This document shows positions 9,230 to 33,144 of a stretch of 37,423 bases of DNA, piece after piece. Made by a program: the position numbers and the translations under genes. The stretch's first letter is position 1. Each line of letters begins with the position of its first letter. The notes under the pieces are model-generated. The model was not told the origin of the DNA. It saw only the letters and a program-made list of their open reading frames with translations, and ran no database searches. Source of the DNA: a virus; IMG/VR virus record IMGVR_UViG_3300046816_000332, positions 1 to 37,423 of that record. One strand, 5' to 3'.

Positions 9230-9486
9230 TGCACTGGCTGGAAGGGCACATCGAGGGCTGGTGGACGAACGGGGCCACCGAGGACGCCGAGCAGGTCCCG
9301 GTGATCATCCTCGGGGCGCTCAGCGGGTCGCTGCTCCTCGTGTGCCGCGGTGACACGGGAGTCCTGACCACGGTCCCGTCGGACAAGGTCCGGCTCGGCT
9401 GGCGCTACGACTTCGACACTCGGCGCTGGGTCGACATCGACCATCTCGAGGAGGACGATGGAGACGCGGCTGACGGCGAAGGCTGA
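9229..9486 (+). CDS. Small hypothetical protein, 85 aa
   Basis: The start shares a base with the upstream stop. The protein is probably beta-rich: VPVIILGALSGSLLLVCRGD, then VLTTVPSDKVRLGWRYDFD, ending in an acidic tail HLEEDDGDAADGEG. It may be a small barrel. The function is unknown. Its 3' end overlaps the following pterin-synthase-like gene by 29 bases; that gene's ribosome binding site GAGGAGG lies inside this coding region. Confidence 0.65.
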   Translation: MHWLEGHIEGWWTNGATEDAEQVPVIILGALSGSLLLVCRGDTGVLTTVPSDKVRLGWRYDFDTRRWVDIDHLEEDDGDAADGEG

Positions 9487-9817
9487 CTTCTCGGCCGGCA
9501 CGAAGCGGTCCAACGGCGAGGAGCGCCATCCCCACGGCCACACGTACTTCGTCGAGGCGACGTCGGTCAGCCAGCTCAACAGCGTCGACTGGGCGCTGCC
9601 CGACAAGCTGGAGTCGATCGTCGGCGAGCTCCACGAGCGCAACCTCGAGGACATGATGCGCGGCGGCTCGACGGACCTCGACGGGATCGCCCGCTGGATC
9701 CTCGAGCGCCTGATGTCGTCGGTGCCCAGCATCGTGGAGGTGACGGTCACCGAGGGCGGCCAGCTTGGCCGGGTCGCCATCACGGCGCGCCGTGAGCTCC
9801 GGGCCGCGGTCAGGTGA
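9458..9817 (+). CDS. 6-pyruvoyl-tetrahydropterin synthase/QueD-like protein, apparently degenerate
   Basis: The 119-aa protein has the family's length and layout: an N-terminal strand KADFSAGTK, the zinc motif HPHGHTYFVEAT with His26 and His28, then NLEDMMRGGSTDLDGIARWI (the usual LN-x-PT-E-N-A region) and VEVTVTEGG. However, the first zinc His (AAH in QueD) and the catalytic Cys before HGH are not evident: the text reads SAGTK and ERHPHGH. QueD-type enzymes make 6-carboxytetrahydropterin for 7-deazaguanine, which some phages use to modify DNA. No partner enzymes (QueC, QueE, FolE, DpdA) are in this window. It may be a non-catalytic or altered-function relative. Confidence 0.7.
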   Translation: METRLTAKADFSAGTKRSNGEERHPHGHTYFVEATSVSQLNSVDWALPDKLESIVGELHERNLEDMMRGGSTDLDGIARWILERLMSSVPSIVEVTVTEGGQLGRVAITARRELRAAVR

Positions 9818-12395: not shown

Positions 12396-12673
12396 GTCTC
12401 GTCCCGTGGGAGCACCCACGCACGCACGAGCCGCACTTCAGCCGGTGCGTCACGACTGGCGAGCGGCATCTCCTGTGGGAGCACGACCACGCGTTCTACG
12501 ACCGGGCCCGGGTTCGGATCATGGAGATGCGCGCGCAGGGGCTCAGGGAGGCCCGGGTGTCGCCCGAGATCATGCACATGGTCATCGGCTGCTGCTCGGC
12601 GAACGACGCCCGGGTGATCCGCCTGATCTGCGATCCGAGCCTGCCGCCCAACAGCATCGTTGCTACGATCTAG
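12392..12673 (+). CDS. Small His/Cys-containing hypothetical protein, 93 aa
   Basis: The GTG overlaps the terminase stop. The protein contains HEPHFSRCVTTGERHLLWEH in its N-terminal third and MVIGCCSANDARVIRLICD later, so metal binding is possible. There is a charged helix ARVRIMEMRAQGLREARVS. The family is unknown. The position right after the large terminase in head modules is often taken by HNH endonucleases, but no HNH signature is present. Its 3' end contains the -10 element TGCTACGAT at 12661-12669. Confidence 0.65.
   Translation: MSLVPWEHPRTHEPHFSRCVTTGERHLLWEHDHAFYDRARVRIMEMRAQGLREARVSPEIMHMVIGCCSANDARVIRLICDPSLPPNSIVATI
12661..12669 (+). promoter_or_regulatory. Candidate promoter, extended -10 TGCTACGAT
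   Basis: It is identical to the site at 2531-2539 and sits at the end of the preceding gene. Transcription would begin near 12676 and run into a strongly structured, non-coding interval. No convincing -35 is seen. Confidence 0.55.
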
Positions 12674-12675
12674 GG

Positions 12676-12783
12676 CAGGCAGACGGCAATACCCGCTGGA
12701 ATGGTCGAAAGATCGTGCCGGGCGGTGCGCCCGAGCCTCGCGATGGCCCCGGTGACTTCGGTTGCCGGGGCCTAGCCTTGTTC
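12676..12783 (+). ncRNA. Candidate small RNA or structured leader, about 105 nt
   Basis: The interval between 12674 and 12799 has no open frame but contains GGGCG-gtg-CGCCC-like pairing around 12720-12732. It also has a long hairpin at 12745-12772 capped by C(UUCG)G, followed by TAGCCTTGTTC. With the promoter at 12661 this would give a transcript of about 105 bases ending at the hairpin. The alternative is that it is only the terminator of the terminase operon plus the leader of the portal operon. Confidence 0.35.
12745..12783 (+). terminator. UUCG-capped hairpin, terminator-like
   Basis: GGCCCCGG (12745-12752) pairs with CCGGGGCC (12765-12772). Four more pairs (two G-U) lead to a C-UUCG-G tetraloop at 12756-12761, giving a 12-pair stem. 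The tail TAGCCTTGTTC is only moderately T-rich. It is probably an intrinsic terminator between terminase and portal transcription units. Confidence 0.5.
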
Positions 12784-12786
12784 GTG

Positions 12787-12792
12787 CATACT
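12787..12792 (+). promoter_or_regulatory. Candidate -10 CATACT of a leaderless transcript
   Basis: CATACT ends seven bases before the ATG at 12800, which would make the A of the ATG the first transcribed base. The gene lacks a Shine-Dalgarno sequence, as expected for a leaderless mRNA, which is common in actinobacteria. A -35-like TTGCCG lies 19 bases upstream. The same CATACT hexamer is used at 3778-3783. Confidence 0.35.
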
Positions 12793-12799
12793 CCCCGCG

Positions 12800-13012
12800 A
12801 TGGCGTTCGACCCTCCCAAGCCGACTGAGCTCGAATTTCGGGACGGCATCAGGGTCGTCCCGGACTACCTCGTCACCATTCTTCGGACGATCGAAACACA
12901 CCGCCTGACCTACGCAGAGGCGCTCGATCAGGCGAATGCGAAGATCCAGTCGGACTACCTGAACGCTCAGCAGGACAAGGTCCTCGCGGCGCACTTCCGG
13001 CAGAGGCGGTAG
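12800..13012 (+). CDS. Small hypothetical protein, 70 aa
   Basis: The start is an ATG without a visible ribosome binding site (upstream is CATACTCCCCGCG). The product begins MAFDPPKPTELEFRDGIRVV and continues with helices YLVTILRTIETHRLTYAEAL and AKIQSDYLNAQQDKVLAAHF, so it is probably all-helical. It ends immediately before the portal GTG with no gap. It could be a portal or packaging accessory, or a scaffold-like factor. There is no recognisable family. Confidence 0.65.
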   Translation: MAFDPPKPTELEFRDGIRVVPDYLVTILRTIETHRLTYAEALDQANAKIQSDYLNAQQDKVLAAHFRQRR

Positions 13013-14368
13013 GTGGGGGCTCTCGTACAGGCCGTTGCGGACACCTTCCGGAGGAGCTACCGGACGGGCCCTGTTTCGAGCTCGGTCAGCTCTGCTGCGC
13101 TCTCGTACAACGGCCGGCAGCGCGTAGGCAAGCCCGACGCGAACCTGTTCCGCAACTGGGCCGAGCACGGCGAGTGGGTCCGGGCCGCGATCCGGTTCAT
13201 GAAGACGCAGGTCAGCCAGTCCGAGTGGGACATCGTCCCGTTCGACAAGACCCGCCGCTACGACAAGGGCCGGGCCAAGGCGATCAAGGCGCTCCTGTCG
13301 GATCCCACGAACCCGGGTGGCGGCGACGAGTCTGGCGACTCGTTCCGGAGCTGGATCGAGCCGATCATCGAGGACGTGCTGACCCTCGACGCAGGGACGA
13401 TCGAGAAGGAGCGCACGGTCGGCGGAGACCTCGTCGCGCTGCACGGCGCCGACGGCGGCCGCATCTTCGTCAACCGGTTCTGGGACGGCGACCCCAAGAC
13501 CATCCGCTACTGGTTCCAGCGATCCCCGGTCGACTTCGCCGGCTTCCTGAACGCCGACATGGTCTACATCATGTCGAACCCCCGGACCTATTCGCCGGTC
13601 GGGCTCTCGATGCTCGAGACCCTGAAGTACACGGTCGACGCCGAGCTCAACGCCAGCGCGTACAACACGCGGCAGGTCACGAACGCGGCTCCTGACGGGA
13701 TGCTCGACCTCGGCGAGGGGACGCGCCCGGAGCAGGTCGAGGGCTTCAAGAGCTACTGGGCGGCCGAGGTCGCCGGCCGCGGTGCGATGGCGTTCATCGG
13801 CGGCACCAAGGGCGCCAAGTTCATCCCGTTCCGGGCCACGAACCGGGACATGCAGTTCCTCGAGTGGAACATCTACCTCGTCCGCAAGATCTGCGCCGTG
13901 GCCGGTCTCAGCCCGCAGGATCTGGGCGTGACCTTCGACATCAACCGGGCGACGGGAGAGGTCCAGCAGGACAAGACCGAGAGCGCCGGCATCCGCCCGT
14001 TCCTGTCGCTCGGGCAGGACTACATCACGCGCGAGATCGTCTGGGACAAGTCCTTCGGCGGCCGGGCCAACAACCTCGCCTTCGCCTTCACGCGGCTCAA
14101 CATCAAGGAGTCGCTCGACAAGGCCCAGATGAACAAGCTGGCGCTCGCCGGCGTGCCGTGGAAGGTCATCAACGAGGCCCGGGCAGACGAAGGGCGCCTG
14201 CCGCTCGGTGACCCGGCGGATCCCGAGAACCCGTACAACCAGCCGATGGCGAACACGCCGCTGGGCGTGGTCCTCCTCAGCGAGCTCCAGACGGCCGCCG
14301 AGGTCAGCAAGAAGCCTGAGCCGGCGCCGGCGGGCGCGTCGAAGCCCAGTGGTGGAGGGAGCAACTGA
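13013..14368 (+). CDS. Portal protein
   Basis: The 451-aa protein starts at a GTG directly after the previous stop. It matches the HK97/SPP1-type portal layout: an N-terminal region, a mixed core with NADMVYIMSNPRTYSPVGLS and SMLETLKYTVDAELNASAYN, then the stem/wing segment and the LEWNIYLVRKICAVAGLSPQDLG region. The conserved ITREIVWDKSFGG leads to the C-terminal crown, and the Pro/Ala/Ser tail is probably disordered. Twelve copies form the vertex channel through which terminase pumps DNA. Its last base overlaps the next ATG. Confidence 0.93.
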   Translation: MGALVQAVADTFRRSYRTGPVSSSVSSAALSYNGRQRVGKPDANLFRNWAEHGEWVRAAIRFMKTQVSQSEWDIVPFDKTRRYDKGRAKAIKALLSDPTNPGGGDESGDSFRSWIEPIIEDVLTLDAGTIEKERTVGGDLVALHGADGGRIFVNRFWDGDPKTIRYWFQRSPVDFAGFLNADMVYIMSNPRTYSPVGLSMLETLKYTVDAELNASAYNTRQVTNAAPDGMLDLGEGTRPEQVEGFKSYWAAEVAGRGAMAFIGGTKGAKFIPFRATNRDMQFLEWNIYLVRKICAVAGLSPQDLGVTFDINRATGEVQQDKTESAGIRPFLSLGQDYITREIVWDKSFGGRANNLAFAFTRLNIKESLDKAQMNKLALAGVPWKVINEARADEGRLPLGDPADPENPYNQPMANTPLGVVLLSELQTAAEVSKKPEPAPAGASKPSGGGSN

Positions 14369-14856
14369 TGGCAGCCAGCCTGCAACTGTCGGTCCGAACG
14401 GGCTCCGGCGCGGGTGCGTTCACCGACGGCGTCAGCGGCGTTGACATGATCTCGGCAGACAACGCCCTGAATTCGCTGGCGAACCGACAGGCCAACCCGA
14501 TCACTGTCGGTGGCTACAGCTACGAGAAGTGGCTGGCGCTCAAGGTCGTCACGGCACCCGCCAACAGCACCTCGGGTTTCAAGATCTGGGGCGACGGCGC
14601 GGTGGCGGCGAGCTCGACCCTCTGGTTCACGGGCAACTACGCCACGTACCAGCAGGGCACCACGGCGGCCTCTACGATCGCCAACACGAGCTTCACCAAC
14701 TTCACCTCGGGCAACAAGGCCAACTGGGACACCGGCACGTACTCGATGACCGGGTCATACACGAAGTACAGCGTGTGGCAGCTCCAGATCGGTGCCGACA
14801 GCAACCCGGGCAACTGGACGACGGAGACGGTCAGCTACAGCTTCGACGAGACGTAG
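14368..14856 (+). CDS. Beta-rich structural protein, 162 aa
   Basis: The ATG shares a base with the portal stop. The protein is rich in Thr, Ser, Gly and aromatic residues, with segments such as GGYSYEKWLALKVVTAPANS, SGFKIWGDGAVAASSTLWF and YSVWQLQIGADSNPGNWTTE. It looks like an extracellular-type beta sandwich, suited to a virion surface or fibre protein. There are no cysteines or membrane spans. It lies between portal and scaffold-like genes, which favours a head decoration or minor capsid part. The exact role is unknown. Confidence 0.7.
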   Translation: MAASLQLSVRTGSGAGAFTDGVSGVDMISADNALNSLANRQANPITVGGYSYEKWLALKVVTAPANSTSGFKIWGDGAVAASSTLWFTGNYATYQQGTTAASTIANTSFTNFTSGNKANWDTGTYSMTGSYTKYSVWQLQIGADSNPGNWTTETVSYSFDET

Positions 14857-14867
14857 GAGGTCCCGAG

Positions 14868-15167
14868 ATGGCCGATGAACCGACGACGGTCGACGTGACC
14901 GCTCCCGTCAACATGGACGAGGTCCGTGATCGCGCTGAGGCCGAGCAGCTCGCCCAGATGCAGGCGCAGGCGGAGGCGCAGGGTCGGCGTCAGGCGCGCG
15001 ACAACGCCCACGCCGAACGCCTCCGCACCTTCGGCGACAAGCGCATGAGCAAGGCGGCCCTGCACGGGCAGGACACCGTCGCGGGCCCGACCGGGCCCAC
15101 GTCGAGCCTGTTCGAGGGCTCGGCGGTCCCGACCGAAGAGGAGGCCACCGGTGCCGAAGCGGGTTGA
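14868..15167 (+). CDS. Small acidic/helical protein, scaffold-like, 99 aa
   Basis: The start is the ATG at 14868 with a perfect AGGAGG at 14855-14860. The centre is a Gln/Ala/Arg helix (VRDRAEAEQLAQMQAQAEAQ), flanked by flexible ends. The composition is like scaffolding or assembly-chaperone proteins, which are helical and non-conserved. It overlaps the following gene by 17 bases. It could alternatively be a head-fibre anchor. There is no named family. Confidence 0.65.
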   Translation: MADEPTTVDVTAPVNMDEVRDRAEAEQLAQMQAQAEAQGRRQARDNAHAERLRTFGDKRMSKAALHGQDTVAGPTGPTSSLFEGSAVPTEEEATGAEAG

Positions 15168-16068
15168 CACCGACGCCGCGAGCCCCTCGGCTCGTGCGCC
15201 AGAAGGAGCTGTCACGGCAGGCGACCTGACCAGCGATCAGGACGTCGCCGGCACCACCGCCACGGGGGAGCAGACCCCGGGCACCGCGAGCGCCCAGCGC
15301 GCGCAGGACCCGCCGGTTCCCGGCGAGACGTCCAACGAGGACATCGAGATGCCGCCGGCCGGCGATCCGGAGCCCGTCGAGGGAGTGCCCGCTCTCGGCG
15401 ACCCGGATGCGCCGGTCGACGACGACACCAACACCCTCACCGCCAAGGACAACCCGCTGGAGACCGACGCCGGTGGTGACACCAGCAAGGCCGAGCGCCC
15501 GCTCGAGATCCCCGCGGTCGACAAGGCCGATCTGGCAGAGCAGCGCGCCGACAACGCCGACACCGAGCTCCGTCAGCGTCAGGCGGCGAACGAGGCCGCG
15601 ACCTCGGACCCCGCGTCGCGCTCGACGGACACGGAGGACGCGGAGGCGGCGACTTTCACGAGTGACCGCCCGGAGCGCCGAGGCGCTGCCGATACGTCCT
15701 ACGCGGGCCCGGAGCGCCGCCGGACGGTCGACTCGACCCACGGACTCGGCGCAGGCCAGCCAGTCGCCCGCCGCGGTGGCCGCCACGGCGATCTGGTCCT
15801 CGACCACCACGGTCGCCCGATGGTGGCTGGGTCCACCTACACGGCGACCTACGAGTACGAGGACGAGACCGACGTCGCCCCCGGCGCCGGCGAGACTGGT
15901 CTCATCTTCGAGCTCAACACCCCGCGCGGCCGCCGCGTTCTCCCGGTCGTCCGCACCGGCGCGGCCGGCACCGTCTCGGTCACGTTCCCCGTCGAATTCG
16001 AGGGCCCCTACCGGGCCCGCCTGATCGACGGCTCCTCTGTTCTTGCCACCCTCGACTTCACCGTCTGA
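15151..16068 (+). CDS. Virion protein with disordered acidic N-terminus and Ig-like C-terminus
   Basis: The 305-aa protein starts at a GTG within the previous gene's end. Residues 1-215 are Asp/Glu/Thr/Ser/Pro-rich and probably disordered, with repeats of the PERR type (SDRPERRGAADTSYAGPERR). Residues about 215-305 read as an immunoglobulin-like beta domain (GDLVLDHHGRPMVAGSTYTA and GPYRARLIDGSSVLATLDFT). Such chimeras occur as head decoration or fibre-associated proteins. The Thr/Ser-rich linker could be a target of the glycosyltransferases encoded next, which is speculation from position. No enzyme motifs are visible. Confidence 0.7.
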   Translation: MPKRVDTDAASPSARAPEGAVTAGDLTSDQDVAGTTATGEQTPGTASAQRAQDPPVPGETSNEDIEMPPAGDPEPVEGVPALGDPDAPVDDDTNTLTAKDNPLETDAGGDTSKAERPLEIPAVDKADLAEQRADNADTELRQRQAANEAATSDPASRSTDTEDAEAATFTSDRPERRGAADTSYAGPERRRTVDSTHGLGAGQPVARRGGRHGDLVLDHHGRPMVAGSTYTATYEYEDETDVAPGAGETGLIFELNTPRGRRVLPVVRTGAAGTVSVTFPVEFEGPYRARLIDGSSVLATLDFTV

Positions 16069-16071
16069 GCG

Positions 16072-16761
16072 GTGACGCTCCTCGTGATCTGCCCGTCTCG
16101 GGGCAGGCCTGACGCAGCTTCCGAGCTGCAACGGACTTTCTCCGAGACGAAGGTTCTCGCGGGGACGGAGCTCATCTTCGCCATCGACTCCAACGACCCG
16201 ACGCTGGAGGGTTACGCGGCCAGTACCCGCGGACTGACCCTCCACGTTGGGCCTCCTGTTGAGATGGGCATGAACGGCGCCCTCAACGAAGCTGCCCACG
16301 CCCTGCTCTATGCCGATCCCGACGTCGAGGTGGTCGGGTTCGTGGGCGACGATCACCGCTTCCGGACCCACGGCTGGGATGCCCAGATCCTCGACCTGCT
16401 GCGCCGGCGCCCGGGGGTGGCGTTCGCCGACGATCGCAACTGGCACGAGAAGCTGCCGACGATGTGGTTCGCCAGCAGGGTCATCGCCTCGTTCTTCGGC
16501 ATGGGCCTCAAGACCCTGAAGCACCTGTACATCGACAACTACTGGCTCGAGCTGGCGGGCGGTGCTGGATGCCTCTACTACCTGCCGGACGTCGTCATCG
16601 AGCACATGCACCCGGCCTACGGCAAGGGCGAGTGGGACGAGGGGTATCGCCGGGTCAACAGCGAGGAGATGTACTCGGCCGACCGTGGCGCTTTCGAGCT
16701 CTGGCAGAGCATCAGCAAGCCGCAGGACGTGGCGCTCCTGACCGAGTTGCTGACGGCGTGA
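16072..16761 (+). CDS. Glycosyltransferase, GT-A fold (putative)
   Basis: The 229-aa protein begins MTLLVICPSRGRPDAASELQ, a typical nucleotide-sugar-binding first strand. It has the acidic triad segment VVGFVGDDHRFRTHGWDAQI (metal-binding D-D-H), then a long region with WLELAGGAGCLYYLPDVVIE and HMHPAY. This fits small GT-A (GT2-like) transferases found in phages. It would transfer a sugar from a nucleotide donor, probably to virion protein or to another sugar. The acceptor is unknown. It begins with a GTG three bases after the preceding structural gene and is coupled (GTGA) to another transferase. Confidence 0.8.
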   Translation: MTLLVICPSRGRPDAASELQRTFSETKVLAGTELIFAIDSNDPTLEGYAASTRGLTLHVGPPVEMGMNGALNEAAHALLYADPDVEVVGFVGDDHRFRTHGWDAQILDLLRRRPGVAFADDRNWHEKLPTMWFASRVIASFFGMGLKTLKHLYIDNYWLELAGGAGCLYYLPDVVIEHMHPAYGKGEWDEGYRRVNSEEMYSADRGAFELWQSISKPQDVALLTELLTA

Positions 16762-17540
16762 ACCCGGTCCCGAGCCCTTCCATCGGGGACGTCCGGGCCC
16801 TGTCGGGGATCCTCGACGATCCGCCGTACAGCCACGTCGACTTCGTGCTGGTGGCGAAGAACGAGTCGGCCCGGTTGCCGGCGCTCCTCGCGCGCGTCCG
16901 CCCTTACTTCGAGCGCGTGGTGGTCGCGGTCCAGCAGTCCCACGACGACACCGAGCAGATCGCCCGGAAGTGGGCCAACGTCGTCATCAGGGACTACGAC
17001 CACGGTTTCGGTGACGCGTCGATGCCGCACCTCCAGCGCCACGTCCGGGCGCGCTGGGCGTTCCGTGTCGATGCCGACGAGTGGCCGTCCTCGGCGCTGC
17101 TCTGGAGCCTCAGCAACGCCACGTGGTGGGCCGACCACGAGCACGCACAGGGCATCTGGATCCCGTACCGCAGCTCGGTCGAGGACATGCCCTACAACGA
17201 TCCCCACTCCCACCTGCGGCTCTGGGAGAACGGCGTGGTTTGGCCGGCGTTCCTCCACAGCCGGCCGCACCCCGACAACAACATCCTCTGGACGACGGGG
17301 TTCATCGACCACTCAAAGTCGCTCGACGAATTTGTCGAGGGCTACCTCTCGTACCTGCGGATCGGCCGGGACAACGAGGGCTGGACCGAGCACAATCTGT
17401 CCCAGCTCCAGAACGCGACGAGGGCCGCGGCGGAGCGGTACGGATGGTCACACGTGACCGGGCGGCCTTGGTGGCCGCAGGTGGTCGCCGAGGCCTTCAA
17501 TGGGGAGGATCCGAGTGCGACGACTGGGCAACAGGACTGA
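16758..17540 (+). CDS. Glycosyltransferase family 2-like protein
   Basis: The start is the GTG at 16758 overlapping the previous stop (GTGA); a longer in-frame extension is a shadow. The 260-aa product has a nucleotide-binding start VDFVLVAKNESARLPALLAR, the typical GT2 KNE signature, followed by RWAFRVDADEWPSSALLW with the metal-binding D-A-D. Downstream, GIWIPYRSSVEDM and HLRLWENGVVWPAF match TPR-less GT2 relatives that act on peptides or sugars. There is no membrane span, so it is cytoplasmic. It overlaps the methyltransferase gene by 26 bases. Confidence 0.85.
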   Translation: MNPVPSPSIGDVRALSGILDDPPYSHVDFVLVAKNESARLPALLARVRPYFERVVVAVQQSHDDTEQIARKWANVVIRDYDHGFGDASMPHLQRHVRARWAFRVDADEWPSSALLWSLSNATWWADHEHAQGIWIPYRSSVEDMPYNDPHSHLRLWENGVVWPAFLHSRPHPDNNILWTTGFIDHSKSLDEFVEGYLSYLRIGRDNEGWTEHNLSQLQNATRAAAERYGWSHVTGRPWWPQVVAEAFNGEDPSATTGQQD

Positions 17541-18213
17541 GCGCGAGGCGCTCGACTACCACCTTCGCCGGAACGACACGCCCGACTTCACGCAGGGCCA
17601 GCCGGGCCGGGTCGACCTCGCCCACTTCCTGATCGAGAAGATCCTCGTGAAGGACCTGACGCGCCGGCCGCTCAAGGTCGTCGAGCTCGGCTGCGGATCT
17701 GGCGACGTCACGGGCCCGTTCGCCGGTCCTCCGCTGGCGGTGCCGGAGTACGACTCCCGGCCAGACCATGACGGGCCCTACTACCAGTTGCCCCGCGGCT
17801 ACATCTCGGCGAACGGCATCGAGGTGATCGGCATCGACGTGGTCCCGATGGCGGTCCGGGCGATGGGGCGGTTCCCGGACATGACGGTCGTCATCAGCCC
17901 GGTCGAGGAGCTGGAGCCGTTCGAGTGCGACCTGCTCGTGATGACCGAATTCCTCGAGCATCTCGTCGACCCGATCACGGTCGTCCAGAAGTGGCTGCCC
18001 CTCGCCAAGTGGGCGATCATCGGCCACCCCCTCGACGAGCCAGACCCGCCCTACGAGTACGGCCACAACTGGTCGTACACCCGCGAGGACTTCCGCGCGT
18101 GGTTTGAGATGGGCGGTCACCACCTCTGGGAGGAATTTCGCTTCCCGATGGGACACTGGGACGCGATGGTGATGGGGCATAGTTGCCGCAACGATCAGCC
18201 CCCGCTGAGATAG
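17515..18213 (+). CDS. SAM-dependent methyltransferase
   Basis: The preferred start is the GTG at 17515, preceded by GGGGAGG six bases upstream; an in-frame ATG at 17500 lacks such spacing. The 232-aa protein has motif I, KVVELGCGSGDVTGPF, the post-I acidic loop EVIGIDVVPMAVRAM, and CDLLVMTEFLEHLVDP as motif IV. It is a class I Rossmann methyltransferase. Set among glycosyltransferases, it probably methylates a sugar or a sugar precursor. DNA methylation is less likely because no NPPY-type motif is present. It is followed after eight bases by a structural gene. Confidence 0.88.
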   Translation: MRRLGNRTEREALDYHLRRNDTPDFTQGQPGRVDLAHFLIEKILVKDLTRRPLKVVELGCGSGDVTGPFAGPPLAVPEYDSRPDHDGPYYQLPRGYISANGIEVIGIDVVPMAVRAMGRFPDMTVVISPVEELEPFECDLLVMTEFLEHLVDPITVVQKWLPLAKWAIIGHPLDEPDPPYEYGHNWSYTREDFRAWFEMGGHHLWEEFRFPMGHWDAMVMGHSCRNDQPPLR

Positions 18214-18221
18214 GAGACCCG

Positions 18222-18548
18222 ATGGCAGCAGCGATCGCATCCAACATCGCGAGCCCGACCGCCGCGAAGGACAACGTCATCGTCACGGTGTCCGGCCTGC
18301 CGGTGAACGACTCCAACAACTACGACGCGAACCGGTACCCGACCGAGCGCGCCCTCGTCTACCGGCTGATGTACGACAGCCCCGGGCCGACCACGCAGTA
18401 CGACATGACGTCGATGGCGTTCTCCCCGAAGGCGGATGGCTCCTTCAGCCACCGTCCGCTCATGTTCCCGGTCGCCGGCGCGTGGACGGTCACCTGCGTC
18501 GATCAGGACGCCAACGTGGTGGCGACGCAGGCCATCACCGTCCAGTAA
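18222..18548 (+). CDS. Small Ig-like virion protein, 108 aa
   Basis: The ATG is preceded by AGGAG six bases upstream. The protein is beta-rich (KDNVIVTVSGLPVNDSNNYD, SHRPLMFPVAGAWTVTCVDQ, NVVATQAITVQ) and resembles the small immunoglobulin-like or decoration proteins of siphovirus heads. Its position inside the sugar gene island suggests it is an acceptor or partner of the modification, which is an inference from order. There are no enzyme motifs or hydrophobic span. Confidence 0.7.
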   Translation: MAAAIASNIASPTAAKDNVIVTVSGLPVNDSNNYDANRYPTERALVYRLMYDSPGPTTQYDMTSMAFSPKADGSFSHRPLMFPVAGAWTVTCVDQDANVVATQAITVQ

Positions 18549-18555
18549 CCCGCGG

Positions 18556-19533
18556 GTGCGGGTCCTCGTCACCGGGGCAGCGGGGCTCCTCGGGCGCTGG
18601 TTCGTCTCTCACCATCTGAACAACGGGGACGAGGTCGTCGGGGTCGACGATCTCTCGAGCCCCTTCAGCCACTGGCCCGAGGCTCTGCATCCGCGCCAGC
18701 GGTACACAACCGAGCTCGTCCGCTGGCTGAAGAGCCACGAGTACGAGCGGTCGATGCTGTTCGACAGGGCGTACCACTTCGCGGCGCCGGTCGGCGGCCG
18801 CGTTCGGATCGAGCAGGATCCGCTCTTCAACGCCGGCAGCTTCGGCATCGACGCGGCGTTCATCGGCTGGTGCGTCAACCGCGTCGACACGCTCGTGTAC
18901 CCGAGCTCGTCCGCGGTCTACCCCGTCGATGACCAGACCGTCGGCTTCCACCACTCGCTGTCCGAGGATCTCTTCAACCCGGCCGTCCCGGGCACGACGA
19001 AGGTCTGGGGTAAGCCCGACGAGGTCTACGGGCTCACCAAGCTCGTCGGCGAAGTCCTCGCGTGGAAGGCCGCGGTGTTCGGCCTCAAGACCCTGTGCAT
19101 CCGCCCGTTCAGCGGGTACGCCGAGGATCAGGGGCTCGACTACCCGGTGGCGGCCATCGCCGACCGCGTCGCCCGGCATGAGGACCCGATCAAGATCTGG
19201 GGCGCCGGCGACCAGACGCGCGACTTCGTCCACGTCTCCGACATCGTTGCTGCCACCGAGGCCCGGCTCGCCGATGGGATCTACAACGGCTACGCGGCCA
19301 TGAACATCGGCTCGGGGATCCCGACGTCGTTCCGGACGATCGCGGTCCGCCTGATGGCGCTGGAGGGCTTCGAGGCCCCGATCGTGACCGACGAGTTGAT
19401 GCCGGAGGGCGTGAAGCACCGCTACGCCGACGTCGAGGAGATGGCCCGCTACTACGTCCCGCAGGTCGACCTGATGACCGGGCTCGAGCGCGTGCTCGCG
19501 TACCGCCACACCAGCCGGCGAATGGGCAGGTGA
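18556..19533 (+). CDS. NAD-dependent epimerase/dehydratase (extended SDR)
   Basis: The 325-aa protein begins MRVLVTGAAGLLGRWFV, with the TGxxGxxG dinucleotide-binding loop at residues 6-13. A Ser-rich active-site strand VYPSSSAVYPVDD and a catalytic Y158-x-x-x-K162 (YGLTK) follow. The substrate half includes ADGIYNGYAAMNIGSGIPTS, as in nucleotide-sugar epimerases, and AGDQTRDFVHVSDIV matches the GDP/UDP-sugar enzymes. It converts one nucleotide sugar to another, feeding the transferases of the island. The exact sugar cannot be told. The GTG start is eight bases after the previous stop, and the end overlaps the next gene as GTGA. Confidence 0.92.
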   Translation: MRVLVTGAAGLLGRWFVSHHLNNGDEVVGVDDLSSPFSHWPEALHPRQRYTTELVRWLKSHEYERSMLFDRAYHFAAPVGGRVRIEQDPLFNAGSFGIDAAFIGWCVNRVDTLVYPSSSAVYPVDDQTVGFHHSLSEDLFNPAVPGTTKVWGKPDEVYGLTKLVGEVLAWKAAVFGLKTLCIRPFSGYAEDQGLDYPVAAIADRVARHEDPIKIWGAGDQTRDFVHVSDIVAATEARLADGIYNGYAAMNIGSGIPTSFRTIAVRLMALEGFEAPIVTDELMPEGVKHRYADVEEMARYYVPQVDLMTGLERVLAYRHTSRRMGR

Positions 19534-20387
19534 CCGGGCCCAAGGTCGCGCGGCGCGTCGTCGGGCAGGGCGGCGGCTGGAGCATCAGCCCGGGCGCGGA
19601 CCTGACCGCGATCCACGACAATCCCACGGGCACGGTCGTCGGCACGATGGCGATCGTGACCCGTGACCGGATCGCGGCCTCGACCGCCATGAGCTGGATG
19701 CTGACGGATCTCGGCTTCCTCGGGCCCGGCGAGGTCCTCTCCCGCCAGATCGTGATCGGCCACATCCTCACCCTTCAGCGGAACGAGTGCGTTCAGCGAA
19801 TGGAGGGCGACTGGATCCTGTTCATCGACGACGACATGGTCTGGCAGCCGGGCGCCGTGCGGACCCTCGTCGAGACCCAGCGCAAGTACGACCTCGACAT
19901 CGTCGGCGGCCTGTGCTTCCAGCGCGGCGCTCCGCACCAGCCCACGCTCTACTACCGCGACGGGCCCACGGGCAACTACAACTTCCGCGAGGAGTGGCCC
20001 GAGGACACCGCGCTCGAGGTGGACGCGACCGGCATGGCGTTCACCCTGATCCACAAACGGGTCTTCGAGCGGGTCCTCGGCGAGCCCATGCCCACGCTCG
20101 AGGAGCGCGCCGGGATGCCCCCGCCGCCGTTCTTCAAGTGGACAGGCCAGTACGGCGAGGACTTCCTGTTCTGTCAGGAGGCCAAGGCCGCCGGCTGCCA
20201 GATCTTCGTCGACACCTCGGTCAAGATCGGGCACATCGCCGAGGTCGTCGTCACCGAGGACTCGTTCAACCGCGAGCTCGCGTTCCGATCGGAGGAGGCA
20301 TGGCAGGCGAGGATCGCCCAGAACGACCGGATGGGGCTCCCGACGGTGGGCCCGAAGGAAGCGTTCTACAAGGTCAGGCGTACCTGA
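19530..20387 (+). CDS. Glycosyltransferase family 2-like protein, 285 aa
   Basis: It is started by a GTG overlapping the epimerase stop. It contains the donor site DWILFIDDDMVWQPGAVRTL (acidic D-D-D) and GEDFLFCQEAKAAGCQIFVD, the ED-x-x-F motif of GT2 enzymes that holds the catalytic base, then HIAEVVVTED. It resembles phage GT-A transferases annotated near virion genes. It has no membrane span. The C-terminal part is overlapped by 88 bases by the next gene, whose start lies in GGAGGAGGC-ATG. The acceptor is unknown, presumably virion protein or sugar already attached. Confidence 0.88.
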   Translation: MTGPKVARRVVGQGGGWSISPGADLTAIHDNPTGTVVGTMAIVTRDRIAASTAMSWMLTDLGFLGPGEVLSRQIVIGHILTLQRNECVQRMEGDWILFIDDDMVWQPGAVRTLVETQRKYDLDIVGGLCFQRGAPHQPTLYYRDGPTGNYNFREEWPEDTALEVDATGMAFTLIHKRVFERVLGEPMPTLEERAGMPPPPFFKWTGQYGEDFLFCQEAKAAGCQIFVDTSVKIGHIAEVVVTEDSFNRELAFRSEEAWQARIAQNDRMGLPTVGPKEAFYKVRRT

Positions 20388-20773
20388 TCGGGGGCGGGCC
20401 GACGCCCGTATTCCTCGAGATCCGCCTGACCGCCGGCGGTGTCCAGATCGACCTCGACGAGCCCGGCTGGATGACCAAGTACGCCGACTACTTCGTGGTC
20501 AAGGCGCTCTGGGTCCTCGGCTGGAAGGACGGCAGCAAGCCCCCGGTGGCGATGCTCGTCGACGACGGCCAGAAGGGCTACTACACGGCCCGCCACATCG
20601 GGATGCAGTCCTCGATCGGCCACAACGAGACGATCGCCTATGGGCTCGGCAAGCAGCTTGCTGACGGCACCAAGGTCGAGGTCGTCCGCATGTTTCCCGA
20701 CGGCATGGCGGTCCTCGGCTCCGACGTCGAGCGGATCGGGTTGATGCTGGTGCGAGCCGCCGGACCGCGGTAG
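20300..20773 (+). CDS. Hypothetical protein, about 157 aa, overlapping the transferase
   Basis: The frame is open further upstream but the only good start is the ATG at 20300 with GGAGGAGG just before it. This gives an 88-base overlap in another frame and a low-complexity N-terminus (MAGEDRPERPDGAPDGGPEG) before the well-formed part GPTPVFLEIRLTAGGVQIDL. The folded region is beta-rich (YFVVKALWVLGWKDG, KVEVVRMFPDGMAVLG). If the true start is downstream, no ATG or GTG fits near the upstream stop. The function is unknown. Its expression is coupled to the transferase. Confidence 0.6.
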   Translation: MAGEDRPERPDGAPDGGPEGSVLQGQAYLIGGGPTPVFLEIRLTAGGVQIDLDEPGWMTKYADYFVVKALWVLGWKDGSKPPVAMLVDDGQKGYYTARHIGMQSSIGHNETIAYGLGKQLADGTKVEVVRMFPDGMAVLGSDVERIGLMLVRAAGPR

Positions 20774-20796
20774 TCGTGTCCAGCGTGCTGGTCGCG

Positions 20797-20805
20797 TGCT
20801 ACGCT
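20797..20805 (+). promoter_or_regulatory. Candidate promoter, extended -10 TGCTACGCT
   Basis: It differs by one base from the TGCTACGAT sites. It lies in the only sizeable gap of the sugar island (20774-20920), directly upstream of a structured leader and the family 4 transferase. Confidence 0.5.
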
Positions 20806-20811
20806 GCCGGC

Positions 20812-20920
20812 CAACAGCAGACTGGCGTCGCGGTTTCTGCCGCGCTCCCCGTATGGACGGGTTGAAGTTGCCGGCTGCGCGTCCCCGTCAGCCTGTTCCC
20901 GGGCGCGGGCTGGAGGTCCC
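20812..20920 (+). promoter_or_regulatory. Structured 5' leader of the family 4 glycosyltransferase
   Basis: Within about 110 bases there are hairpins CGCGG-tttctg-CCGCG (20829-20844) and CCCGT-atgg-ACGGG (20848-20861), and a GCCGGC pair that can close around them. Near the end, GCGCGGGCTGGAGG carries the ribosome binding site, which could be masked. No known riboswitch is recognised; translational control is an inference. Confidence 0.35.
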
Positions 20921-22168
20921 GTGTCCAAGATCCTCTGGCTGTCCGATGGCGGCTGCTCGACTGGCTTTGGGCGTGTCACGCACGAGATCGGCGAGCGGCT
21001 GGTCAGGGATTACGGGCACGAGGTTCACGTCCTAGCGGTCAACTACCGCGGCGACGCGTACCCCGGCCTCCTCGATCCGGCGAAGCCGACGCCGCTCTAC
21101 CTGTACCAGCCGACCCAGCTCGACCCCAAGGACGTCTACGGGATGTCCCGGATGATCGAGATGCTGGGCCGGGTCGAGCCCGACGTCGTCGTCTCGCTGA
21201 ACGACCCGCAGATCCTGCTCACGATGCTGTTCAGCAACCGCCTCGACCCCCAGCGGGTGCTGCTGAGCTACCGCCCGATCATCAGCTACACGCCGTGCGA
21301 CGGGACCAACCTCCCGCTGGCGTGGCAGATCCTCGGGGCGGCGACGAACCTGCTGGCGATGAGCCAGTGGGGTGCCCAGCAGTATCCAAACAGCCGGGTT
21401 GTCTACCACGGGGTGGACAGCGAGCACTTCTGGCCCGTCAGCGATCGCCGGCCGATCAAGGTCGGGGAGCTCGTGCTCCGCTCGAAGACCGACTGCAAGC
21501 GCGTGTTCGGTTTCCCGGATGACGCGTTCGTCGTTGGACGGGTGGACACCAACAGTGAACGCAAGGACTACCCGGCGACGTGGAAGGCCCTCGTACCGTT
21601 CATGAACCGCCACCCCGACGTCAGGGCGCACTTCCACTGCGGACGCAAGCCCGGGAACGCATTCGGGGTCGACTTCGACAACCTGCTGAGCCGGGTCGAC
21701 GATCCCAAGCCCGACCGGTTCCACTTCCCGGAGGCCCGCTCGACCTACGTCGGCTGGCCGCAGGAGCACATGAACGCGCTGTACAACGCGTTCGACGTGT
21801 TCATCTCGACGAGCCACGGCGAGGGCGCTGGCCTGACGCTGATGGAGGCGGCGGCCTGCGGGGTCCCGATCGTCGCCCAGAACGTGAGCGCGATCCCCGA
21901 GTACGTCGGGCCCGGGGCGATCCTCCTCGAGCCGGAGCGGCTGATCACGGTCCCCTCGGGCGAGGACCAGTGGCTGCCCGACATCGACGCATTCACCGAC
22001 GCCCTCGAGCGCCTGTACAAGAGCCGCGGGATGCGGCGGGATCTGGGCGCCGCGGGGCGTGAACACGTGAGCCAGTTCGGTTGGGAGACGCCCGCCGAGC
22101 AATTCGACGAGTACATCCGGGCGCTCGCGGCGATGCCGAAGGCTGAGCCTGCGTCCATGACCGGCTGA
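20921..22168 (+). CDS. Glycosyltransferase family 4-like protein
   Basis: The 415-aa protein has a GT-B layout. The N-terminal Rossmann half starts SKILWLSDGGCSTGFGRVTH, with the small-residue loop GxSTGFGR typical of phage and bacterial GT4. The C-terminal half has YVGWPQEHMNALYNAFDVFI and the E-x7-E signature SHGEGAGLTLMEAAACGVPI that binds the nucleotide sugar. It is a retaining transferase in the cytoplasm, with no membrane span. It starts at a GTG after GGAGG and has its own promoter and leader, so its level may be set apart from the rest of the island. Confidence 0.92.
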   Translation: MSKILWLSDGGCSTGFGRVTHEIGERLVRDYGHEVHVLAVNYRGDAYPGLLDPAKPTPLYLYQPTQLDPKDVYGMSRMIEMLGRVEPDVVVSLNDPQILLTMLFSNRLDPQRVLLSYRPIISYTPCDGTNLPLAWQILGAATNLLAMSQWGAQQYPNSRVVYHGVDSEHFWPVSDRRPIKVGELVLRSKTDCKRVFGFPDDAFVVGRVDTNSERKDYPATWKALVPFMNRHPDVRAHFHCGRKPGNAFGVDFDNLLSRVDDPKPDRFHFPEARSTYVGWPQEHMNALYNAFDVFISTSHGEGAGLTLMEAAACGVPIVAQNVSAIPEYVGPGAILLEPERLITVPSGEDQWLPDIDAFTDALERLYKSRGMRRDLGAAGREHVSQFGWETPAEQFDEYIRALAAMPKAEPASMTG

Positions 22169-22203
22169 GCGACGCCGTCAGGCAGCTCGTAGAGGAGGTC
22201 CCA

Positions 22204-23451
22204 GTGGACAAGATCGACGCGGCGATCGCCGGCGGACAGGGCCGCTTCCAGATCTTCTCTGGCGTGCTGATGGCCTACACGGCCTCGGTGAAGCAGGCCG
22301 ACGGATCTGAGCGCGAAGTCAAGATGCTCCGCGGCATCGCCAGCTCGACGGTCAAGGACCTTCACGGCGATCGCATGACCGACAACGCCATCGCGAAGAT
22401 GGAGCAGTCGGCCAAGAGCAACATGACGATCTTCCTGAACCACAGCTACGAGGTTCCGGAGGACGTCGCGGGCTCGGTCGTGTCTGCGTGGTCGACGAAG
22501 GACGCGTCCGAGACCGCGGCCGACGGCAACCCGATCGCGCTGCTCCACTTCGAGATCTCGGTCAACGAGCAGAACGAGCGCGCGGTCAAGGCGTGGTCCG
22601 CCATTCAGGGCGGCACCAAGCTCGGCCTCTCCATCGGCGCCATGATCCCGGACGGCGGCGCCACGTGGGACAAGCAGGCCGGCGGCTACATCATCGACGA
22701 CATCGAGCTCCTCGAGACCTCGATCGTGGGCATCCCGGCGAACCCCAAGAGCTGGGTGGAGTACGCGGTGAAGAGCATCGGTGGCCGACCGGCCGCCAAG
22801 GCTGCCGTGCCACTCGACGCGGGGAAGCCGCAGGTGACCCTCGACGCGGACACCGGGGAGTACAACATCCGGGGCCAGCTCGGCGACATCGCGGTTGTGC
22901 GCGGCGTTGCCCCGAGCGAAGAGCCCGAGACGCCGGCGACGCCGGCAGCCGGTGACACGGTCGAGCCTGAAGCGCAGGCCTCGTCCATCACCGTGATCCA
23001 GATCGACACCGGCAACGACTCCGGTGGCGATGACTCTGACTCCGCAGGGAGCTCCTCGAGCGACCCTGAGACCGGGGCGTCTGGCACGACGGACAGTGCC
23101 GGCACCGACGCGGGCCTGACCCGTGCCTACGAGCTGCTCGGCTCGTCGGCCGCGGTCATTCGCTCCACGAACGAGCTGATCCTCGCCCTCTCGACCGAGC
23201 TCGAGACCACGCGATCGCAGCTTGCCGCGGAGACCACCCGTGCCGATGAGGCGGAAGCAGCGGCGCAAACGGCGCTCACCGCGGCCGCCGACACCCTCAC
23301 CCGGGTGAAGAACCTCCCGCTCGGCCGCAAGGCCGTGCTCACGGAGGTGGAGGACTCCTTCCACCGCTCCATGTCGGAGGTCTATTCGTCCGGGGCTCTC
23401 AAGGTCCTCACGGACGCCGAGGCCAAGGCCAAGGCGGCCACCACCAAGTAG
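22204..23451 (+). CDS. Prohead protease with C-terminal scaffold-like region
   Basis: The 415-aa protein has an N-terminal HK97-type (S78) protease, about residues 1-190. His80 lies in IFLNHSYEVPEDVAGSV, Ser143 in TKLGLSIGAMIPD, and Glu171 in LLETSIVGIPANP; these correspond to the catalytic positions. The rest (about 200-415) is Ser/Asp/Ala-rich and then helical/coiled coil (ELETTRSQLAAETTRADEAE), as expected for a fused scaffold or delta-domain region. It cleaves head proteins inside the immature prohead. The GTG start has AGGAGG upstream. It directly precedes the capsid gene, the standard order. Confidence 0.9.
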   Translation: MDKIDAAIAGGQGRFQIFSGVLMAYTASVKQADGSEREVKMLRGIASSTVKDLHGDRMTDNAIAKMEQSAKSNMTIFLNHSYEVPEDVAGSVVSAWSTKDASETAADGNPIALLHFEISVNEQNERAVKAWSAIQGGTKLGLSIGAMIPDGGATWDKQAGGYIIDDIELLETSIVGIPANPKSWVEYAVKSIGGRPAAKAAVPLDAGKPQVTLDADTGEYNIRGQLGDIAVVRGVAPSEEPETPATPAAGDTVEPEAQASSITVIQIDTGNDSGGDDSDSAGSSSSDPETGASGTTDSAGTDAGLTRAYELLGSSAAVIRSTNELILALSTELETTRSQLAAETTRADEAEAAAQTALTAAADTLTRVKNLPLGRKAVLTEVEDSFHRSMSEVYSSGALKVLTDAEAKAKAATTK

Positions 23452-23462
23452 GAGCTCGCAAC

Positions 23463-24836
23463 ATGGGACTCTCTCCCCAGTTGCAGGCCCAGATCAACGC
23501 CGTTCGCGAGGCGCAGGAGGCCCTGTCGGCTTCCCTCGCCAGCCTGAACGACGAGCCGAATGTCGTGCGGCAGGACGCGCGCATCGGCATCGGTGATCAG
23601 GGCACGCAGCAGCCCAACGTCCGCCGGGCGCTCACCCCGTCGCAGCGCCACGAGATGGGCGACCGACTGCACTCGCTGTCGAACCGGCAGCTCATGCAGT
23701 TCTTCTTCGAGCAGATGCGCCAGAAGAACACCGGCATCCCGCTCGACACGTGGCTCAACGCCGGCGGCTACGCCGCGCAGGCGGCCTTTCAGGGGATCGG
23801 CTCTCAGGTCGATCCCGACGTCGCCCGGGCGATCGACACCGGCGGCGCAGCGGCCCTGATCCGGCAGGATCTCGAGCCGGCGCTGTACGAGCTGTTCGTG
23901 CGGCTGTTCCCGGCCTACGACCGGATCGCGAAGGAACCGGCCAACGGCCTCGTCCACGCGTTCAATCAGGTCACGAGCTATGGCGATGCCAAGTTCATGC
24001 CTGAGCTGGGCACCGTGACGGACGACCAGTCGACCTACGTCCGCAAGACCACGAACATCGCGATCCTCGCCACCCGGCGCGGCGTGTCGCTGAAGAGCCA
24101 GTTCGCGGTCCTCGCTGGCGGCGCCGGCTACAACCCGGAGCAGCTCGAGCTTCAGGGCGGCCTCCGGGCCATGGCCCACCGGATGCAGACCCAGATCTTC
24201 TCCGGTCAGGCCACGGTCACCGGCGGCACCTATGCCGACGAGTACGGCGCCTACGACGCGAACGCGTTCGACGGGCTCCGCTACCTGCTCGGCATCGTCC
24301 AGAACAACGCGCTCAACGTCGACCCCGCGACGAACCCGGCCACGACCGGCAACGTCCGGCGCGCCGTCGACGCGGCCATCCTTCCGTCCCTCCAGCTCGG
24401 CGGCAACCCGGGCGACATGGAGATCTGGAGCTACCCCACCGAGAAGCAGGCCTTCGACGAGCAGCAGGACGCCAACGTCCGGATCATGTCGTCGGCTCTG
24501 CGGACCACGGTCGGTGTCACCGCGAACGCGATCAACACGGTCGCCGGCGACATCCCGTGGTACGTCCTCGCCGGCGACTCGATCGACCCGACGACGGGTG
24601 CGGTGGGCTACTCGCCCGGCGCGCACTTCGCAGGGGCGACCAAGGCCCGCGACGTCTACATGCTCGACTTCGGGTCGCTCTCGCTGCCGTACCTCGGCAC
24701 CGAGGGCCCCACGGTCCTCGACATTCCGATCGGGATCTCCGGTCAGCTCACCCACCTGTTCGTGATCTTCCTCATGAACGGGCTGGCGCTGAAGGTGCCC
24801 GGCTGGAACAACAAGGTCCGCGTCAAGCTGTCCTGA
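23463..24836 (+). CDS. Major capsid protein, HK97 fold
   Basis: The 457-aa protein lies 11 bases after the protease. The first 90 residues are helical and polar, like a removable delta domain. HK97-fold features follow: the N-arm, an E-loop region with FMPELGTVTDDQSTYVRKTT, the spine helix QLELQGGLRAMAHRMQTQIF, and P-domain/A-domain strands through NARKVPG-like LALKVPGWNNKVRVKLS. Hundreds of copies build the icosahedral shell. It is preceded by GAGCTCGCAAC (weak ribosome binding site) and followed by a strong hairpin. High expression is expected, consistent with the terminator after it. Confidence 0.93.
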   Translation: MGLSPQLQAQINAVREAQEALSASLASLNDEPNVVRQDARIGIGDQGTQQPNVRRALTPSQRHEMGDRLHSLSNRQLMQFFFEQMRQKNTGIPLDTWLNAGGYAAQAAFQGIGSQVDPDVARAIDTGGAAALIRQDLEPALYELFVRLFPAYDRIAKEPANGLVHAFNQVTSYGDAKFMPELGTVTDDQSTYVRKTTNIAILATRRGVSLKSQFAVLAGGAGYNPEQLELQGGLRAMAHRMQTQIFSGQATVTGGTYADEYGAYDANAFDGLRYLLGIVQNNALNVDPATNPATTGNVRRAVDAAILPSLQLGGNPGDMEIWSYPTEKQAFDEQQDANVRIMSSALRTTVGVTANAINTVAGDIPWYVLAGDSIDPTTGAVGYSPGAHFAGATKARDVYMLDFGSLSLPYLGTEGPTVLDIPIGISGQLTHLFVIFLMNGLALKVPGWNNKVRVKLS

Positions 24837-32246: not shown

Positions 32247-32665
32247 TGGCAGCACCAACCACCACGGCGCCGATCAAGCGCGCGTTGGTTCGTTCCCTGC
32301 GCGCGATCCCGAGCTGGGGAACCGCCGTACCCGGCGGGGTCCACCAGTCTCTGGCCCCGAGGAAGCAGCGTTACCCGTTCGTGACCTACAACCTCCTGCC
32401 GGCAGTCCGCGACTACCAGTTCGACGGGATGCAGCTCACGACGGACGTCGACGTCTTCGCCTACTCGGAGAACGCGGTCGACGCTGAAAACGTCGACTCG
32501 CTCATCGCCGCTCATCTTCAAGATGCACCGCTCGCGGTGGATGGGCAGGTCCTCCTCTACTGCCGGCGTGTCGCCGACGTCAGCAACCCGCAGACCGACG
32601 CGCGGGGCCGACGCATTTACCAGATCGGCGGGACGTACCGGATCACCACCGACCAGAACCTCTAA
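32246..32665 (+). CDS. Tail terminator protein
   Basis: The 139-aa protein starts at an ATG sharing a base with the upstream stop. The layout, an N-terminal helix (IKRALVRSLRAIPSWGTAV), strand PFVTYNLLPAVRDYQFDGMQ with LTTDVDVFAYSENAVDAEN, and a terminal strand YQIGGTYRITTDQNL, matches lambda gpU/HK97-type tail terminators. It caps the finished tail tube before head joining. Its stop codon overlaps, in antiparallel fashion, the stop of the HNH endonuclease on the other strand. Confidence 0.82.
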   Translation: MAAPTTTAPIKRALVRSLRAIPSWGTAVPGGVHQSLAPRKQRYPFVTYNLLPAVRDYQFDGMQLTTDVDVFAYSENAVDAENVDSLIAAHLQDAPLAVDGQVLLYCRRVADVSNPQTDARGRRIYQIGGTYRITTDQNL

Positions 32666-33144
32666 GTCACGCTCTTCCACGAGCGACCGCTCACGGCCTG
32701 TCGGACAGCCTGATGGCTGACCCCGTACTTGCGGCCGAGGACGGTGAAGGGCACGCCGAGCGCCCGGAGCTCTCGAGCTTCACGGACCTGCTCGACGGAC
32801 AGCTTGTGCCACGGGATCCGTTCCCCCTCGGTGTTCGTTCCGTCTCGCTTTCGATCCCGGTTGTTGTCGCCTTTCGTTCCGGTGCTCAGGTGCCGATCGT
32901 TGACGCAATGCCGGTTCCGACAGGAGTGGCGGAGCACGACGCCCTTGGCGATCGGCCCGTGTTCCCAGATCCACGCGACTCGATGCGCGTCGACGGTGTT
33001 CCCGTCGAGCCAGAAGCTCCCGTAGCCGGTCTTGGGCCTGATCCCTCCCGTCCAGAGATGGCAGGTGTCGGGGCCCCCGGAGCGGTCAACGAGAGCCTCG
33101 AAGCGTTCTCGAGCGGGCGTGCGGTCGTAGACACCCTTCGGCAT
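32662..33144 (-). CDS. HNH homing-type endonuclease
   Basis: The 160-aa protein is on the strand opposite to the tail genes. Its ATG is preceded by AGGAGG seven bases upstream (minus). Residues about 28-100 contain CHLWTGG, the HNH_3-type core DAHRVAWIWEHGP and VVLRHSCRNRHCVNDRHLST with GTKGDNNRDRKR. The C-terminal third is a helix-turn-helix (LSVEQVREARELRALGVPF and YGVSHQAVRQAVSGR) for DNA targeting. Free-standing HNH enzymes cut uninserted relatives and spread by repair. It is wedged between the tail terminator and tail tube genes, and probably recently gained. Confidence 0.92.
   Translation of the reverse strand: MPKGVYDRTPARERFEALVDRSGGPDTCHLWTGGIRPKTGYGSFWLDGNTVDAHRVAWIWEHGPIAKGVVLRHSCRNRHCVNDRHLSTGTKGDNNRDRKRDGTNTEGERIPWHKLSVEQVREARELRALGVPFTVLGRKYGVSHQAVRQAVSGRSWKSVT

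Follow-up and report, generated by a model that had tools for sequence, protein, structure and literature searches.

A sugar-enzyme gene cassette exchanged within the head module of a soil phage family, with a probable role in virion glycosylation

In this study, we analysed a phage DNA stretch of 37,423 bases (IMG/VR record IMGVR_UViG_3300046816_000332, taken whole and called the window), in which an island of sugar-enzyme genes lies from the portal gene to the prohead protease gene. The core of this island is four glycosyltransferases (GTs), a class I methyltransferase and a short-chain dehydrogenase/reductase (SDR) acting on nucleotide sugars. The gene content of its relatives establishes the block as an exchangeable cassette in a fixed slot, where GTc, GTd, p20384, 14368 and 18222 are constant and the other sugar enzymes vary, a property that is not visible from a single sequence. 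We believe that the island is probably a virion-glycosylation locus, and that it most likely equips a virion protein with a methylated glycan. The locus is real and modular; phage virion glycosylation itself is already known. The genes of the slot and its flanks are as follows:

13013 to 14368, plus strand: portal (left flank), matching named phage portals
14368 to 14856, plus strand: B14368 (14368 in the text), a Ser/Thr-rich all-beta protein of 162 amino acids (aa) at the left cassette border, from a 131-member family adjoining the portal
16072 to 16761, plus strand: GTa, a GT of the actinophage phrog_14945 type (E 1e-36)
16758 to 17540, plus strand: GTb, a GT2-family GT (PF13704, 9e-7, above the cut-off; PF00535)
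17515 to 18213, plus strand: class I methyltransferase dependent on S-adenosylmethionine (PF13489, 8e-6, just below the Pfam cut-off)
18222 to 18548, plus strand: B18222 (18222 in the text), 108 aa, modelled as an immunoglobulin (Ig)-like beta sandwich
18556 to 19533, plus strand: SDR nucleotide-sugar epimerase/dehydratase (PF01370, 6e-26)
19530 to 20387, plus strand: GTc, the core GT2-family GT (PF00535, 9e-8), with orthologs in the same slot
about 20384 to 20773, plus strand: p20384, a conserved protein of 130 aa with no function assigned (alignment of 29 relatives)
20921 to 22168, plus strand: GTd, the core GT4-family (GT-B) GT adjoining the protease (PF13692, 5e-14; phrog_2170, 2e-32)
22204 to 23451, plus strand: prohead protease of the S78 family (right flank; PF04586, 4e-6)
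23463 to 24836, plus strand: major capsid protein (right flank), with 46-60% identical homologs behind the protease in relatives

The first-pass annotation of the window had proposed four GTs, a methyltransferase and an SDR, and profile searches (Pfam, phrog) together with motifs found all six where it had placed them. DxD is present in GTb and GTc and E-x7-E in GTd, and in the family alignment of GTc the DxD, GED and H positions are invariant. The methyltransferase has an intact VVELGCGSG motif, and the SDR carries TGAAGLLG (TGxxGxxG) and YGLTK (YxxxK). The proposal that the phage brings its own sugar-interconverting and methylating enzymes stays part of the best explanation. At the family level, the assignment of these enzymes to the production and transfer of sugars is secure. 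The best PDB matches of the SDR were MoeE5, UDP-Glc 4-epimerase and GDP-fucose synthase; its activity could not be assigned to a single reaction, since these matches mix epimerases, dehydratases and GDP-fucose synthase. Compared with the relative L009, the ratio of nonsynonymous to synonymous substitution rates (dN/dS) was 0.16-0.56 for all island enzymes and 0.11 for the portal, indicating purifying selection. Because the enzymes are retained in more than 100 relatives and are all under purifying selection, the island is not a chance assembly.

These relatives were collected by IMG/VR profile scans with 14368 and the portal, which returned more than 100 distinct contigs, all metagenomic. Genes outside the window were predicted with a codon-model caller made for this analysis and grouped by single linkage, and the SDR and methyltransferase clusters may each mix several activities. 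The gene order is nearly invariant. It begins with the large terminase subunit (TerL), a 70-aa gene, portal, 14368, variable sugar enzymes, 18222 and, in part, methyltransferase and SDR, and continues with GTc, the p20384 homolog, a large Ser/Thr-rich fibre-like protein (c21), a gene of about 105 aa, GTd, protease and capsid. Most relatives carry the c21 fibre within the block; in the window it is missing from this slot. The order from portal to protease is retained even where the capsids are 46-60% identical. Of 85 loci in which three or more genes follow 14368, 83 had a sugar gene among the next four, and 46 of 49 complete spans contained 18222. Each span held 3 to 9 sugar genes (median 5), and 28 distinct enzyme sets occurred among the 49; the counts over 85 loci and 49 spans include near-identical contigs. 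When GTc was used as an independent query, its orthologs of at least 41% identity were all behind 14368 where the contig extended far enough upstream, and weaker matches (up to 35%) were mostly generic GT2 proteins located elsewhere. GTa orthologs were likewise behind 14368, except for a second group (L285-L309), apparently of unrelated phages, in which a GTa about 37-41% identical stands beside an SDR and the portal of this family was not seen.

The variable part of the cassette is rich in enzyme types. Pfam searches of the relatives found GT2, GT17 and GT4-like transferases, versions with one or two SDRs, methyltransferases of the Methyltransf_11, 24 and 25 types, a cytidylyltransferase-like protein and a CmcI/rhamnosyl O-methyltransferase (PF04989, 2e-30). 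The 35-type protein (L122:8511), which had no Pfam match, is a putative nucleotidyltransferase on the strength of its GGNGTRLGMPFPKPL motif. The 48-type protein matched a sulfotransferase at E 0.027 only, and the 148 and 154 types had no match.

Exchange of the cassette was seen between close relatives. The portals of L007 and L009 are 100% identical, while their 18222 proteins are 39% and their GTa proteins 79% identical; L007 matches the window at 99.2% identity across 12664-19133, including the island, and at 96% in the DNA just before it. This pattern of identity reflects recombination. The portals of L120 and L128 are 98.6% identical and their DNA is 89% identical through 14368, and homology ends within 1-2 bases of the 14368 stop codon. 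Past that stop, one has SDR, GT17, SDR, a methyltransferase/GT fusion, GT and GT, whereas the other has GTa, a nucleotidyltransferase, two methyltransferases and a GT. Between L086 and L087, one GT is replaced. In some loci, LAGLIDADG (L122:7098-7862) or HNH (L125:3708-4001) genes stand right after 14368 (cluster sizes 13 and 14), and these endonucleases at the cassette border may drive the exchange. In 38 non-redundant loci, the similarity of enzyme sets did not follow portal identity (r=0.03). With portal identity accounted for, it followed 14368 (partial r 0.30, 0 of 2000 permutations), GTc (0.26, 0 of 2000) and 18222 (0.19, 8 of 2000).

We believe that the virion is probably the target of these sugars, because the genes sit in the head module, the enzymes are soluble, two small beta proteins accompany them, and neither a base-hydroxymethylation gene nor flippase-type neighbours were found. 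In the proposed mechanism, the SDR, which in relatives is joined by a second SDR, nucleotidyltransferases and O-methyltransferases, would supply an activated sugar within the cytoplasm of the host. GTc and GTd would attach the first sugar or sugars to a virion protein produced late with the head, a role given to them because they are constant across cassettes, and the variable GTs and methyltransferases would extend and cap the outer part of the glycan. A cassette swap would then change the sugar coat and, with it, probably how the particle binds to the environment or host or is recognised by them.

Which protein bears the glycan is a guess at present, and 14368, our first choice, is more apt to prove wrong than right. 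It was chosen because it is constant, Ser/Thr-rich, at the cassette border and co-varies with the cassette contents. Its gene, which abuts the portal stop codon, was overlooked by the first-pass annotation, as was p20384, whose start is probably a CTG in a CTGA overlap with the GTc stop. Ser and Thr make up 26% of 14368, the highest value of all window proteins (about 12% in the portal family), and the AlphaFold2 (AF2) model is confidently all-beta (predicted local distance difference test, pLDDT, 87) and has no firm structural match. N-x-S/T sequons occur at N32 in 42 of 46 members and at N149 in 41 of 46. No firm match emerged for p20384, 14368 or 18222 when their profiles were searched against the PDB; a likeness of 14368 to lambda J (E 0.009) is a lead only. 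Alternative acceptors are 18222, the fibre and the capsid. The first-pass annotation had put a methylated sugar on the capsid or on two small beta-rich proteins, 18222 and 15151. The virion glycan stays the best explanation and 18222 is indeed predicted to be Ig-like, but as candidate acceptor we preferred 14368 to 15151, because 15151 occurs only in close relatives of the window. The two genes between 14368 and GTa are:

14868 to 15167, plus strand: acidic protein of 99 aa, found by clustering in close relatives of the window only
15151 to 16068, plus strand: 15151 protein of 305 aa, in close relatives only and divergent there (54%)

The N-terminal two thirds of 15151 are acidic and of low complexity, its C-terminal part is conserved, and it had no matches.

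A variant of the virion reading is that 14368 and 18222 are lectin-like or adhesin proteins of the particle and that the enzymes serve a fibre (c21 or the 26499 protein) or the capsid. The AF2 model of 18222 (pLDDT 88) is an Ig-like sandwich resembling the TEP1r macroglobulin (MG) domain (Z 10.9, root-mean-square deviation 2.1, 88 residues), and the protein evolves fast (dN/dS 1.15 against L009) in a conserved position, both of which would suit this variant, as would the large Ser/Thr-rich fibre c21 within the block of most relatives. However, the window slot lacks c21 and yet keeps GTc, p20384 and GTd, and the swap point is bordered by 14368, not c21. We consider this variant doubtful, although it is the strongest of the alternatives considered.

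The island enzymes might instead alter host surface glycans, for superinfection exclusion or serotype conversion, with their place in the head module being incidental. Cell-wall glycans are likewise served by SDRs, O-methyltransferases and GTs, and the freshwater actinophages E7 and F5 have GTs for which a host-glycan role has been proposed (PMC10202952). Against this, the annotated families include no flippase, polymerase or Gtr-type membrane GT, and the island proteins of the window show none of the hallmarks of Gtr/serotype conversion (membrane flippase, membrane GT). They contain no hydrophobic segments: the highest 19-residue hydropathy mean was 1.34, and no transmembrane segment was found. 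The strict placement from portal to protease, with two small beta proteins and in the strand run of the head genes, holds over more than 100 contigs. When the species genomes of 84,980 bacteria and archaea were scanned with profiles of 14368 and of the portal, no prophage of this family turned up, only weak portals. We therefore regard host-surface modification as improbable.

We believed it very improbable that the glycans sit on phage DNA, as in glucosylated hydroxymethyl bases or similar. DNA glycosylation by phage GTs is known, and the window has a gene at 9458-9817 resembling 6-pyruvoyl-tetrahydropterin synthase (PTPS)/QueD (PF01242, 1e-6; homologs in a cluster of 63 family genes), a family used in 7-deazaguanine synthesis. 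However, neither QueC nor an enzyme of the thymidylate synthase/dCMP-hydroxymethylase type (PF00303) was found in 12 possibly incomplete contigs of up to 131 kb, in which controls were detected. Protein glycans are also a better fit for sugar O-methylation and for cassettes of several GTs that are linked to two beta proteins. Modification of the host surface and of DNA are both weaker explanations than a virion glycan, which was strengthened because the position holds family-wide, the enzymes are soluble and the nucleotide-modifying enzymes of DNA glycosylation were not found.

Several points weigh against virion glycosylation. The family is known from metagenomic sequence alone, and the acceptor is one that we infer. 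18222 could bind sugar rather than bear it. The contigs are incomplete, so DNA-modification genes may have been missed. Simple linkage could by itself yield the correlation of 14368, GTc and 18222 with the cassette. The function of chlorovirus B736L, to which GTd is related, is unsettled, and the capsid glycan of its virus has no mannose (PMC9614988).

Studies have shown that the capsid glycan of chloroviruses (PBCV-1/NY2A) is built in the cytoplasm by soluble, virus-encoded GTs, that a viral dehydratase supplies GDP-sugars, and that A064R-D3 and A061L are O-methyltransferases acting on rhamnose (PMC5408694, PMC9614988). Soluble GTs, a nucleotide-sugar enzyme and a sugar methyltransferase are common to these viruses and the island, and the closest PDB sequence to GTd is NY2A B736L (E 1e-10). 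In contrast, chloroviruses are giant viruses of algae with scattered genes and proven chemistry, whereas the island is a cassette known from its genes. The head encoded here is HK97-type with an S78-family prohead protease, not a double-jelly-roll capsid with N-glycan.

Capsid and tail-tube glycans have been reported for mycobacteriophages (Che8 gp110, Corndog, Myrna) by Freeman et al. 2023, as that work is related in PMC12363180 and PMC12619734, and phage-encoded GTs are common to both systems. The first-pass annotation had cited mycobacteriophages as a precedent for such genes near structural genes, which did not hold for Che8. Its three GTs (gp108-110) lie at the far right of the genome (56171-58673 of 59472), its head module has no insertion, and no SDR or methyltransferase stands beside its GTs, whereas the island has both. 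Profiles of the island families did not match gp110 at E<10 and matched gp108 only weakly.

Closer arrangements were found in other named phages. Synechococcus phage S-CBS4 has portal, a hypothetical gene, a GTd-type GT4, a GT2_16-type GT, an MT31-type methyltransferase, protease and capsid, but this stretch has no SDR, homologs of 14368 and 18222 were not found, and the portal is unrelated. The head module of Pontimonas phage phiPsal1 holds a GTd-type GT4, an MT31-type methyltransferase and a GT2_16-type GT behind the capsid gene, not ahead of the protease, and no SDR. Upstream of TerL, TJE1 carries an epimerase, a methyltransferase and GTd; in Mae-JY09, GTd and an SDR lie behind the capsid gene. 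Among named phages, a near-identity DNA search gave no match, and tblastn found none for GTb, methyltransferase 17515 or GTc. Such a locus was not described in the literature searched, whose coverage was partial. The hosts may be Actinobacteria, as suggested by the high GC content and by relatives of GTa from phages of Streptomyces, Arthrobacter and Actinoplanes.

Bacterial capsule and O-antigen (Wzy-type) loci have constant flanks and exchangeable sets of GT and nucleotide-sugar genes. The island differs from them in its place among virion genes, and neither a flippase nor a polymerase nor an initiating membrane transferase was seen in it. We tentatively propose, at somewhat below an even chance, a "virion serotype" locus, in which glycan cassettes would be exchanged like bacterial capsule loci and close phages would wear different methylated sugar coats. 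The stop codon of 14368, as a dedicated carrier glycoprotein, would then set the border, sometimes beside homing endonucleases. Virion glycosylation in tailed phages has so far involved a few mycobacteriophages and a handful of GTs. Here a whole soil phage family gives 3 to 9 head-module genes to sugar enzymes and swaps them among close relatives. Should the virion carry the glycan, phage particles would have a sugar-based variation system, and the reasons why coats vary would become directly testable (adhesion to soil, binding to the host, recognition by protists or antibodies). The soluble GTs and sugar O-methyltransferases of the family also form a catalogue of unusual enzymes, possibly with an encoded protein acceptor.

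The window record is incomplete, its 3' end cutting the tape measure gene. Its rightward order is small terminase subunit (TerS, 10391), TerL (10923), portal (13013), island, protease (22204), capsid (23463), connector and tail genes and tape measure. The island had been described as lying from the portal to the protease and capsid with overlapping genes, and both points were upheld, the first by portal homologs, PF04586 and a capsid conserved in relatives, the second by overlaps at 16758/16761, 17515/17540 and 19530/19533, all on one strand. A Pfam search with the window capsid gave no match; the family capsids were recognised with it as query and are not recognised by PF05065. In 14300-22400, neither a promoter pattern nor a plus-strand terminator pattern was found. 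Because the genes overlap and these patterns are absent, a single transcript would fit. Repeats searched within the island were short, chance-like pairs only.

Some further genes were observed. In L009, a 207-aa gene without Pfam match (6222-6842) lies between 18222 and the SDR and is absent from the window. One contig of 130,935 bases (IMGVR_UViG_3300028802_000007, with loci L134 and L141) contains two portals and two capsids of this family, as tandem genomes or a misassembly. In the window, the gene at 26499-29441, behind the capsid and connector genes, encodes a fibre-like protein of 980 aa with a C-terminal LamG domain (PF13385, 5e-17). An HNH-endonuclease-like gene, read by eye, lies on the minus strand at 32662-33144, opposite to the tail module around it.

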